Source: Desulfobacterales bacterium
GTDB lineage: Bacteria > Desulfobacterota > Desulfobacteria > Desulfobacterales > JAFDCJ01
DNA length: 36,299 nucleotides
Reading direction: 5' to 3'
Assembly (NCBI GenBank): GCA_030066155.1
Contig: JASJCE010000020.1
Coordinates: forward strand, 1 to 36,299
In this document: positions 2,455-9,169 of the stretch, piece after piece
Numbering within the stretch: the stretch's first letter is position 1
Layout: each line of letters opens with the position of its first letter
Position numbers and translations under genes: made by a program
The notes under the pieces: model-generated
Seen by the model: only the letters and a program-made list of their open reading frames with translations
What the model was told of the DNA's origin: nothing
The model's database searches: none

Positions 2455-3009
2455 ATGGGCAAAAAGCTTCAATTTGTGATCATTCTTTTCGCGTTAATTC
2501 CGCTTCTGTCATTGTTGCCGGCCTGTTCCAAAGAGAAATCACCGACTGTACCCACTGAATCCGCGGTGCAGGAAGAGGATTTAGAAGCACAGAAAGTTAG
2601 AGAGCAGTTGGAAAAGGAACAGCAGGAACGCGAAGCCAGAGATCGTGAATTCAGAGCGGAAAAAATTAAATTCATGTACGAGGACATCCATTTTGAAAAG
2701 GGAAGCTATGAGCTGATGCCGGCGGCGCAGCAATTGCTTATCCAAAAGGCTCAATGGCTGCAAAAAAATTCAAATGTCAGGGTTATCGTTGAAGGCCACT
2801 CGGACGAAAAGGGATCAAAAGAGTACAATTTTGCCCTCGGTGATCAGCGGGCCGGTGCTGCGAAATCATTTCTGATCGGTCAGGGCATCCAGTCATCGCG
2901 TCTAATAGCCGTCAGCTATGGAAATGAACAGCCGATCGACACCGGCCTTACGGAAGCTGCGAAGTCCAAAAACCGCCGGGTACATTTCGTGGTCGAGGAG
3001 TCGCATTAA
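2455..3009 (+). CDS. pal: Peptidoglycan-associated lipoprotein (Pal/OmpA-like)
   Basis: A 184-residue lipoprotein. A signal peptide ends in the lipobox LLPAC (Cys 24), followed by a charged, probably coiled-coil segment rich in E, Q and R (about 40-75) and then an OmpA-like peptidoglycan-binding domain. The domain motif is seen in VRVIVEGHSDEKGSKEYN and RRVHFV near the end. Pal anchors the outer membrane to the cell wall and belongs to the Tol-Pal system; no tol genes are in the window, so the orphan location is notable. GGGAGG precedes the ATG by 6 bp and a strong promoter lies just upstream. Its stop codon overlaps the stop of the convergent regulator gene by a few bases. Confidence 0.92.
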   Translation: MGKKLQFVIILFALIPLLSLLPACSKEKSPTVPTESAVQEEDLEAQKVREQLEKEQQEREARDREFRAEKIKFMYEDIHFEKGSYELMPAAQQLLIQKAQWLQKNSNVRVIVEGHSDEKGSKEYNFALGDQRAGAAKSFLIGQGIQSSRLIAVSYGNEQPIDTGLTEAAKSKNRRVHFVVEESH

Positions 3010-4178
3010 ACCTTAACGGTTTTGGTTATCTCTCCGAAAGTTTTTATCTCTGAAGGCAAATCATCGAGTTCAATGGTCAAATTAACCCTGAGAGCAAAGG
3101 CTCTTTCGATTACATTCTCCAGTTGAATAACATTGCCGGGCCAGTTGTATCGCAGCAGCACATCGAGAGCATCCGGCGATACGTTGAGCACTTTATTTTC
3201 ACTTTTCTGACTGAATTTATTTAAATAGTGGTTTATCAAAAGACAAATATCTTCCTTGCGGTCCTTTAAAGGCGGTATCTCGATCTGAACATCGTTGATA
3301 CAGTTAAAAAATTCTTCGTTAAAAAGCGATTTGCGGGTCGCTTCAACCAGATTGCGGTTGGTAGCAGCCAGAATCCTCGCACCGCTTCCCGGGTTACCTT
3401 CGGCAGCCGCCTGATCAAGGCTGTACGCCTTAAATGCCCGGCTGATCTGGGCCTGGACCTTCGGATCTATTTCGGCTATTTCATCAAAAAATACCGCTCC
3501 ACCGGCGGCAGATTGAAATAGATCTATGGTGTGATCGTGCAGCTGATCATCGGAGATTCCTCTTCCAAAGCTTTTGCAATTCAACGACTTAAAGGGTTTT
3601 TCCGCTCTCCGGCTGTTGCGATGAATGACACGTGCCGTCAGTGCTTTGCCGGATCCGCTCTCTCCCTGTATCAAGACATTGGGACTGCTATTTTTCATCC
3701 GATCGATCTGCTCATAGATCTCACGCATTTTGAGGCTGATGCCGACCAGATCATCGTATCGATGCCACTCTTTCAGACGGGCTTTTAGTTCGATATTCTC
3801 CTGTTTGAGCTTCTTAACCTCTATGATTTTATCAATTAGAATTCTCAAAACATCCAGTTTAAAAGGCTTTTGAATGTAATCATAGCTGCCGAATTTCATG
3901 GCCTGAATGGCGGATTCCATGGTTCCGTGACCGGTAACCATAATCACTTCGGTTGCCGGACGGTATTCCTTGATCACGCTCAGCAGCTCAAGACCGTCGA
4001 TGTCCGGCATTTTAAAATCGGTAAAGACAACATCAAAATCTTTTTCCTTAATCAGTTGAAGAGCCTTGAGACCGTTATCGATTACCGTGATTCTATAGTC
4101 GAATGCGGTCAAATACTCCTCGACCAGCGAAAGAATCGTTCGATCATCATCCACAAACAAGATTTGAAACTCTTTCAT
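3006..4178 (-). CDS. Receiver-AAA+ regulator with a degenerate sigma54 domain
   Basis: A 390-residue protein. The start at 4178 is chosen because GGAGGG precedes it and the receiver begins at once; the track start at 4211 has no such signal. Residues 1-120 are an intact CheY-like receiver: DDD pocket, phospho-acceptor Asp in VFTDFKMPD, VTGHG and the lysine in QKPF. A NtrC-type AAA+ domain follows with Walker A GESGSGKA, Walker B AVFFDEIAEI and sensor I ATNRN. The GAFTGA loop is absent, the FREDLYYRL arginine-finger segment is replaced by FNEEFFNCI, sensor II GNVREL reads GNVIQL, and there is no Fis-type DNA-binding domain at the C-terminus. It can hardly activate sigma54 polymerase itself. 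It may be a phosphorylation-controlled partner of the AAA+ regulator encoded 33 bp upstream. The function is inferred. Confidence 0.85.
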   Translation of the reverse strand: MKEFQILFVDDDRTILSLVEEYLTAFDYRITVIDNGLKALQLIKEKDFDVVFTDFKMPDIDGLELLSVIKEYRPATEVIMVTGHGTMESAIQAMKFGSYDYIQKPFKLDVLRILIDKIIEVKKLKQENIELKARLKEWHRYDDLVGISLKMREIYEQIDRMKNSSPNVLIQGESGSGKALTARVIHRNSRRAEKPFKSLNCKSFGRGISDDQLHDHTIDLFQSAAGGAVFFDEIAEIDPKVQAQISRAFKAYSLDQAAAEGNPGSGARILAATNRNLVEATRKSLFNEEFFNCINDVQIEIPPLKDRKEDICLLINHYLNKFSQKSENKVLNVSPDALDVLLRYNWPGNVIQLENVIERAFALRVNLTIELDDLPSEIKTFGEITKTVKV

Positions 4179-4211
4179 GGTTCCCTCCACCACAGCTCGC
4201 CGGCATTTCAA

Positions 4212-5249
4212 TTATTCGGAATCATCATTTTTTCCCAAGTTATAGCGCTTTATTTTTTCAACCAGAGTTGTTCTCTTTATCTTAAGCAGCTGAGCAGCTT
4301 TGTTTTTGACCCAGTTGGTTTTCTCCAGGGCACTGATGATGAGCGCTTTCTCAAATTCACTGACGGCAGTGTTAAAAGAGATGCCGTCGCTGTCCACTTC
4401 CACTTTGCCGCGGGCCTGATGGCCGCTTTTGGCAACCAGGTTTTCAGGCAGATCTTCAGGCTGGATTTTCTCGCCCTCGTTCAGAACGACAATTCTTTCG
4501 ATTAAATTCCTGAGCTCTCTGACATTACCCGGCCAGGAATAATTTACCAGTATTTTCATGGCATCATCGGATATCTTGGCCGGCACGGCATCTTTTTTTC
4601 GACTGAATTCCTTGAGAAAGTAGGAAACGAGGTAGGGGATGTCATTTTTGCGTTCTTTGAGCGTCGGCAGCAAAATCGGGATAACGTAAAGGCGGTAGTA
4701 GAGGTCTTCGCGAAAATTTCGCTTTTGGACTTCCTCCTCCAGATCCCTGTGGGTTGCAGCAATAATCCGCGCATCCGTCTTAATGGTTTCATGGCCGCCG
4801 ACACGCTCGAATTCCCCTTCCTCAAGGACTCTGAGAACTTTAACCTGAAGATCGGCACTCATATCACCGATCTCATCCAAAAATATGGTTCCGCCCTTGG
4901 CCATCTCAAATTTGCCGGGCTTATCTGCAGTTGCACCGGTGAAGGCGCCCCGCCGGTAGCCGAAAAATTCGCTTTCGAGCAATCCCTCCGGGGTGGCCCC
5001 GCAATTGATCTGGACAAACGGTTTGTCGTTGCGGCCTGAAGCCATGTGAATTGCCCTGGCAATCAATCCTTTTCCGGTACCCGTTTGGCCGTTGAGCATA
5101 ATCGTCGTATCGCTGTCGGCCACCTTCTCCACAATTCTGAATATTTTCTGCATGGCGGACCCATGGCCGATGATGTCTTTGAAGATCACTTGAGGCGGTA
5201 ATTTGATCGGGATAACCTTATCTTGACGCTGAAGATGTGGATCAGTCAT
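4212..5249 (-). CDS. Sigma54-dependent enhancer-binding protein, no receiver domain
   Basis: A 345-residue AAA+ activator of sigma54 RNA polymerase. After a 25-residue lead it has a slightly unusual Walker A GQTGTGKG, the sigma54-contact loop RRGAFTGA, Walker B GGTIFLDEIGDM, arginine fingers in FREDLYYRL and sensor II in WPGNVREL. A Fis-type helix-turn-helix ends the protein (NWVKNKAAQLLKIKRTTLVEKI). There is no N-terminal sensory or receiver domain, so its control must come from expression or from a partner protein. The adjacent downstream gene encodes a receiver-bearing but otherwise degenerate relative, which would be the natural partner. GGGGG precedes the ATG by about 10 bp. Targets are unknown; no clear sigma54 (-24/-12) promoter was noticed in the window. 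Confidence 0.92.
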   Translation of the reverse strand: MTDPHLQRQDKVIPIKLPPQVIFKDIIGHGSAMQKIFRIVEKVADSDTTIMLNGQTGTGKGLIARAIHMASGRNDKPFVQINCGATPEGLLESEFFGYRRGAFTGATADKPGKFEMAKGGTIFLDEIGDMSADLQVKVLRVLEEGEFERVGGHETIKTDARIIAATHRDLEEEVQKRNFREDLYYRLYVIPILLPTLKERKNDIPYLVSYFLKEFSRKKDAVPAKISDDAMKILVNYSWPGNVRELRNLIERIVVLNEGEKIQPEDLPENLVAKSGHQARGKVEVDSDGISFNTAVSEFEKALIISALEKTNWVKNKAAQLLKIKRTTLVEKIKRYNLGKNDDSE

Positions 5250-8894: not shown

Positions 8895-8904
8895 GACTGC
8901 AGCC

Positions 8905-9169
8905 CGAACGTCCAACGTCCAACGTTCAACATCGAACGTCCAATGTGGATGACGCGATGCTTTAAAAGTTATATCTTAGTATGGATCATAGCCTGTGAAT
9001 TGCTCCCTCCGACAGGCTTAGCACTGAGCTTTTCGAACGGCGGGCTGATTAATTTCACAAGAATATATTCGTTGGAGCAAAATAGGCGCCTTATGTAATT
9101 CATTTTAAAATTGATAAAATACCATATTCGAAGTTGGACGTTGAACGTTCGATGTTGGACGTTGGGTTG
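8905..9169 (-). repeat. Composite dispersed element copy 2 (inverted relative to copy 1)
   Basis: Heptad arms at 8905-8946 (GAACGTC/CAACGTC units) and 9127-9169 (TTGGACG/TTGAACG units) enclose a core whose two ends match the element at 2054-2300 on the opposite strand. The middle of this core carries an extra imperfect palindrome (CGACAGGCTTAG ... CTGAGCTTTTCG, about 9010-9035), resembling REP-type sequences found in many genomes; copy 1 lacks it. The element lies between the DUF4124 gene and the prenyltransferase gene. Confidence 0.75.

Follow-up and report, generated by a model that had tools for sequence, protein, structure and literature searches.

A conserved receiver-bearing pseudo-AAA+ protein of sigma54 activator descent in Desulfobacterales

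Introduction

What function is left to a protein that has the receiver and ATP-binding motifs of a sigma54 activator and lacks the GAFTGA loop, both arginine fingers, the sensor II arginine, and the DNA-binding domain? The question is raised by a gene, denoted P1d, in a 36,299-nucleotide stretch of Desulfobacterales DNA (termed the window). Among kinases and in some AAA+ machines, it is well established that pseudo-enzyme subunits can steer their active paralogues. In the sigma54-activator literature cited here, no conserved receiver-bearing pseudo-ATPase of this class is found.

Anatomy of P1d

Translation of P1d begins at an ATG at 4178, and a GGAGG-type ribosome site lies immediately 5' of this start. 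Its parts are as follows.

3006..4178, minus strand: P1d, a receiver plus pseudo-AAA+ protein of 390 aa (translation, Pfam, 43 distinct homologues).
3840..4163, minus strand: receiver domain with D10, D11, D54, T82, and K104 all present (Pfam; conserved in 43 of 43; median dN/dS 0.03).
3642..3665, minus strand: Walker A, GESGSGKA, with K178 invariant in the family (alignment).
3527..3528, minus strand: T217/I218, the junction of an exact 11-residue deletion that removed the GAFTGA loop (alignment, model).
3480..3491, minus strand: Walker B, FFDE, intact in the window and drifting in some homologues (alignment).
3300..3320, minus strand: former arginine-finger motif RxDxxxR, now NEEFFNC (alignment).
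3126..3128, minus strand: former sensor II Arg, now Ile351 (alignment, column conservation).
3018..3041, minus strand: conserved C-terminal tail where the HTH was, in the region of consensus EIxTFGxISK (alignment, column conservation).

Pfam matches cover Response_reg (residues 6-113, 104 bits), Sigma54_activat (145-300), and AAA_lid_14 (305-381), and the AAA+ part scores 93.7 bits against PF00158, for which the cut-off is 20.2. By descent, P1d is a sigma54 activator of the Sigma54_activat family, AAA+ clade 6. It is not to be filed as a working activator, because four defining functional features were tested for and are lacking. No named-regulator label (AtoC, NtrX, NtrC, or PEP_resp_reg) is given, since the NCBIfam equivalog matches fall far below their cut-offs.

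The receiver is intact, as a preliminary description had it: the phosphoacceptor Asp and the DD, T/S, and K positions expected of a two-component response regulator are all occupied. Among the window genes scanned, no histidine kinase lies beside P1d. The ATP-binding motifs, also described as intact, are so with one reservation. GESGSGK and FFDE are present, but Ala takes the place of Glu (PspF E43) directly behind the Walker A lysine, both in the window protein and in the relative closest to it, and the ATP site thus departs somewhat from the canonical form.

Missing elements were called by alignment with working activators. The loss of GAFTGA, of both arginine fingers, and of the sensor II Arg, each named in the preliminary description, is borne out, and so is that of the DNA-binding domain: a Pfam profile search finds no HTH_8 match anywhere in P1d, and the protein ends ~10 residues past the lid. 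The further claim that loss is confined to residues for oligomer ATPase work and polymerase contact comes close, but the losses extend to the DNA-binding domain and to the second pore loop, L2, as well as to Walker B and sensor I in part of the family. Judged by its sequence, P1d has no arginine fingers to offer, no means of contacting sigma54, and no HTH with which to bind DNA; it can still provide a receiver open to phosphorylation and a pocket for nucleotide.

In an AlphaFold monomer model (mean pLDDT 83.9, pTM 0.62), a single unbroken helix, residues 210-223, spans the GAFTGA deletion, and the helix linking the receiver to the AAA+ part is long. The closest structure found by Foldseek is NtrC1 (PDB 1ny5, E 2e-33, 39% identity over the aligned part). 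NtrC1 of Aquifex aeolicus is likewise a receiver-AAA+ protein with a long linker helix, but unlike P1d it is a working sigma54 ATPase with all motifs present.

A deletion of the same kind occurs in the GAFTGA-less NtrC proteins of Rhodobacter capsulatus and Caulobacter, which are receiver-AAA+ proteins with a deleted L1 loop (PMC10274813); VpsR also lacks GAFTGA. These regulators keep DNA binding and control sigma70-type promoters, whereas P1d is without HTH, fingers, and sensor II and stops shortly after the lid, which makes it extremely improbable that P1d is a DNA-binding, sigma70-related regulator of their type. The enhancer-binding proteins (EBPs) tabulated for Desulfovibrio vulgaris all have some form of GAFTGA (PMC4641369), so none of them is a counterpart of P1d.

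At its 3' end, P1d overlaps a convergent OmpA/Pal-like gene (2455-3009, plus strand) tail to tail by 4 bp (3006-3009). The surrounding DNA also holds two copies of a ~247-bp element (2053-2299 and 8904-9166) in opposite orientation and 71% identical. Its ends are ~40-nt inverted sequences built of AACGTCC-type heptamers. The draft genome holds about 40 copies, of which roughly half are near full length, and the element looks like a MITE-type dispersed repeat.

The P1d family and selection

Homologues of P1d are present in five of seven same-genus genomes, at 67-86% identity, and in numerous Desulfobacterales, Desulfosarcina alkanivorans and D. widdelii among them. Of 292 genomes sampled evenly from the order, 36 have the gene, and further copies lie on other contigs; the genome-wide counts for P1d and for its neighbour P2 rest on sequence searches of this genome set. 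At least 43 distinct degenerate proteins were compared with 18 intact relatives.

The reading frame is open at full length in all 43. Without exception (43/43), the homologues conserve the five receiver residues and, in Walker A, the glycines and the lysine. Walker B retains its Asp in 39/43 (D to N in 4/43) and its Glu in 40/43 (E to D in 3/43), and the sensor I Asn is kept in just 12/43. The 11-residue GAFTGA deletion is found in every degenerate homologue and also in a related protein, L031. Arginines survive at the first finger in 2/43 and at the second in 1/43, and the sensor II Arg is Ile in 43/43; the intact relatives have Arg at all three positions in 18/18. Losses shared by 43 of 43 homologues of one clade are well beyond chance.

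Purifying selection on P1d is strong. Across 36 close pairs, dN/dS has a median of 0.12 for the whole protein, 0.16 for the AAA+ part, and 0.03 for the receiver; for the window protein and L026, dN is 0.087 and dS 1.61. Intact relatives, with four qualifying pairs only, have no receiver/AAA+ contrast of this kind.

Column conservation separates the parts that the family has kept from those that it has given up. It is at least as high in the degenerate proteins as in the intact ones for the receiver (0.66 vs 0.57), Walker A (0.89 vs 0.87), the pre-lid segment (0.77 vs 0.63), the lid (0.47 vs 0.40), and the helix from WPGN to sensor II (0.88 in both). The new C-terminal tail is conserved at 0.54, against 0.08 in intact relatives. 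Conservation has fallen, relative to intact proteins, in the L1 stump (0.23 vs 0.83), L2 (0.16 vs 0.66), the finger helix (0.29 vs 0.73), and Walker B (0.49 vs 0.85). Retained are the parts for signal input and for nucleotide binding and the surface that takes a neighbour's arginine fingers; lost are the sigma54 contacts and the parts that reach into the next subunit.

Random decay into a pseudogene is ruled out by the 43 open homologues, the dN/dS values, and the single ancient clade described below, and the earlier argument for a changed function stands. A milder form of decay, in which P1d is a degrading duplicate kept by chance or as a phosphate sink for its receiver, fits the stepwise loss of catalytic parts and the AAA+ dN/dS, five times that of the receiver. 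It is nevertheless very unlikely: all homologues are open, Walker A and lid are kept as in intact relatives, the change of the sensor II Arg to Ile is fixed, a new conserved tail has arisen, the origin is one and ancient, and a pure phosphate sink would have no need of an AAA+ part.

Origin of the P1d lineage

All degenerate proteins form one clade nested within an intact receiver-AAA+-HTH family. With the motif columns left out, the clade has support 100/97 (bootstrap 100), and the clade together with L031 has 99/96. The next branch outside is the intact L141, from the same organism as L031 (support 99/89). Grouping by shared motif loss was rejected as a cause, since the clade holds with the GAFTGA, finger, sensor I/II, and tail columns removed. 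Relatives with normal motifs thus exist, but as an outgroup to a lineage that split once, and they are not scattered among the degenerate proteins.

L031 is an intermediate: GAFTGA is deleted and the HTH gone, while both fingers (RKDLFYR) and the sensor II Arg are retained. L035 and L036 keep the first finger and nothing else of the arginine set. From these states it follows that the GAFTGA loop and the HTH were lost first, and the arginines later. On either side of the L031 gene lie genes for an HDOD-HisKA-HATPase kinase and for a CheX-CheX-FliN fusion (L031:7669-9192 and L031:3093-4763).

Flagellar genes are frequent neighbours of the intact relatives. The intact gene of G042 has a GAF histidine kinase on one side and P2 on the other, with CheX after that; the intact gene of G096, a genome that harbours both the intermediate and an intact relative, precedes P2, an FlrC-like regulator, and flgBC-fliEF. 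Among neighbour names, only FliF, CheX, HDOD, and kinases were checked with profiles; flagellin, FlbT, FlaF, flgB, flgC, fliE, fliG, and FlrC-like were read off translated sequences. The P1d family has a single origin, derives from a flagellar-region sigma54 activator, and is maintained by selection.

The neighbouring activator P2

Directly upstream of P1d, on the same strand, is a gene for a second protein, denoted P2.

4212..5249, minus strand: P2, a receiverless sigma54 activator with GAFTGA, arginine fingers, sensor II, and a Fis-type HTH, upstream of P1d (Pfam, P2 tree).
4179..4211, minus strand: gap of 33 bp between P2 and P1d, 5-134 bp at other branch loci with both genes on one contig (sequence).

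In the window's branch, P2 precedes P1d on the same strand, 5-134 bp apart, at 20 of 20 loci with both genes on one contig; two further loci, interrupted by contig ends, stand outside the 20. The pairing spans at least six family-level groups. P2-type activators usually reside in a flagellar cluster, with flagellin and FlbT/FlaF-like genes on one side and FlrC-like and flgBC-fliEFG genes on the other. The window's genome has one P2-type activator in that cluster (G000:C360:276-1229) and a second copy, P2, with P1d. The P2 copies beside P1d group into a single clade of 18 rows (SH-aLRT 98), distinct from the flagellar copies of the same genomes, denoted P2b; one long-branched pair, in G020, falls outside it. 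P2 is a duplicate of the flagellar-locus activator, placed in an operon with P1d. Between P2 and P2b, the recognition helix hardly differs.

P2 has no NCBIfam equivalog above cut-off; it and G000:C360:276-1229 share a clade with unnamed flagellar-cluster regulators of Desulfobacterales. No sigma54 promoter was found 5' of the P2-P1d operon, and a scan of the whole window gave 21 matches against 18.9 expected, which is chance level.

Distances among P1d proteins correlate with those among P2 proteins beyond the species divergence measured by P2b (partial r 0.71, permutation p 0.0002, n=14). With G036 and G095 removed, the partial r drops to 0.46, no higher than with P2b, and the signal arises mainly from shared acceleration in these two genomes.

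P2-type activators occur in 32 of 36 P1d genomes and 31 of 256 others, a co-occurrence inflated by ancestry because the genomes are not independent. These counts, the descent from a flagellar-region activator, and the near identity of the P2 and P2b recognition helices are what might be expected if P1d were a trans-acting anti-activator of sigma54 activators generally (P2b, FlrC-like), with P2 as one client. The role would resemble that of FleN in Pseudomonas aeruginosa, a nucleotide-binding partner that restrains the sigma54 activator FleQ (PMC10723142), although FleN belongs to the ParA/SIMIBI-type ATPases and has no kinship with AAA+ receiver proteins such as P1d. Given the inflated counts and the persistence of P1d after loss of flagella, a general anti-activator is improbable.

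The sister branch

In the Desulfosarcina/Desulfatitalea branch, P1d lies away from P2 and mostly directly 5' of a B12-binding radical SAM gene. One such gene, just downstream of P1d, is at L043:6177-7793, with equivalents through most of the branch; downstream of the L036 gene are instead another kind of radical SAM protein and a hybrid of receiver and kinase. In G035, no radical SAM gene adjoins P1d, yet P1d is kept.

The presence of P2 in this branch tracks flagella. P2 and FliF both went undetected in six P1d genomes (G035, G099, G107, G109, G206, and G284, all drafts), and a universal dependence of P1d on P2 is rejected on this ground. FliF is present and P2 undetected in G108 and G302. 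No partner common to the whole P1d family was found.

The six genomes bear on the idea that P1d is a stand-alone, non-transcriptional response regulator, in which phosphorylation and ATP binding would alter the lid and tail so that these dock on a non-sigma54 target (chemotaxis, motor, or metabolic), and the link to P2 would be an inherited operon of one branch only. The usual position of the radical SAM gene directly 3' of P1d points the same way, as do the HDOD histidine kinase and CheX-CheX-FliN fusion beside the L031 intermediate and a tail and lid conserved at least as well as in intact relatives. However, a partner for the whole family is wanting, P1d survives in G035 with no radical SAM gene beside it, and the fixed order of P2 and P1d and the separate P2 clade are left unexplained. 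This account is possible but somewhat doubtful.

Proposed role and known systems

The leading explanation for the window's branch is that P1d associates with P2 and gates it, as a pseudo-ATPase subunit under the control of phosphorylation, a reading that the sequence evidence and the comparisons below leave about as likely as not. The receiver would be phosphorylated by a kinase and, together with ATP binding, would set the shape of the AAA+/lid domain, which would then dock on the arginine-finger face of P2. Because P1d cannot hand fingers to the next subunit, its insertion would cap the P2 assembly or leave one dead site in the ring. The activity of the receiverless P2 would thereby become signal-dependent. 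We infer the binding to P2, its dependence on phosphorylation, and the sign of the effect, for which gating or inhibition is mildly favoured over co-activation. P1d could also act alone, for example as a receiver-linked dimer, and this would count against the P2-subunit model. Where P2 lies elsewhere or may be lacking altogether, as in the sister branch, this P1d domain would have to act on another partner.

The P2-subunit model is proposed because of the pattern of conserved and lost parts, the behaviour of finger variants of PspF, and known hetero-oligomeric activators (FleQ/FleT, HrpR/HrpS, VnfA). The constant order of P2 and P1d, the separate clade of P1d-adjacent P2 copies, the correlated distances, and the shared recognition helix of P2 and P2b speak for it as well; the six genomes with neither P2 nor FliF, and the weight of G036/G095 in the correlation, speak against it. 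In PspF, R162/D164/R168 variants are without ATPase activity but assemble constitutively into hexamers, and subunits with a defective Walker B are complemented by R162/R168 variants (PMC3419264). HrpR/HrpS of Pseudomonas syringae and VnfA1/VnfA3 of Azotobacter are interacting paralogous sigma54 activators that form hetero-oligomers (PMC9542535). HrpR/S have no N-terminal regulatory domains and VnfA proteins have GAF domains, whereas P1d combines a receiver with a disabled motor.

In Cereibacter (Rhodobacter) sphaeroides, an HTH-bearing sigma54 activator, FleQ, works with an HTH-less AAA+ paralogue, FleT, in flagellar regulation (PMC7277832, PMC7175178). P2 and P1d resemble this pair as a DNA-binding receiverless activator and an HTH-less AAA+ protein of flagellar descent, and paralogue and HTH-bearing partner again stand in one genome, with P2 adjacent. 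Judged by domain content, FleT has neither receiver nor HTH, whereas P1d has kept its receiver and has lost GAFTGA, fingers, and sensor II.

For the family as a whole, it may tentatively be suggested that a sigma54 activator lineage was turned stepwise into a general phospho- and ATP-gated adaptor, whose lid and tail output would be non-transcriptional or directed at several AAA+ partners and which outlasts P2 and flagella. The family is an ordered record of losses, with the GAFTGA loop and HTH gone first and the fingers and sensor II afterwards. Since an intermediate survives beside an intact relative in G096, these ordered losses provide a natural test system for the number of armed subunits that a sigma54 ring requires and for how a receiver may be supplied in trans to a receiverless activator.
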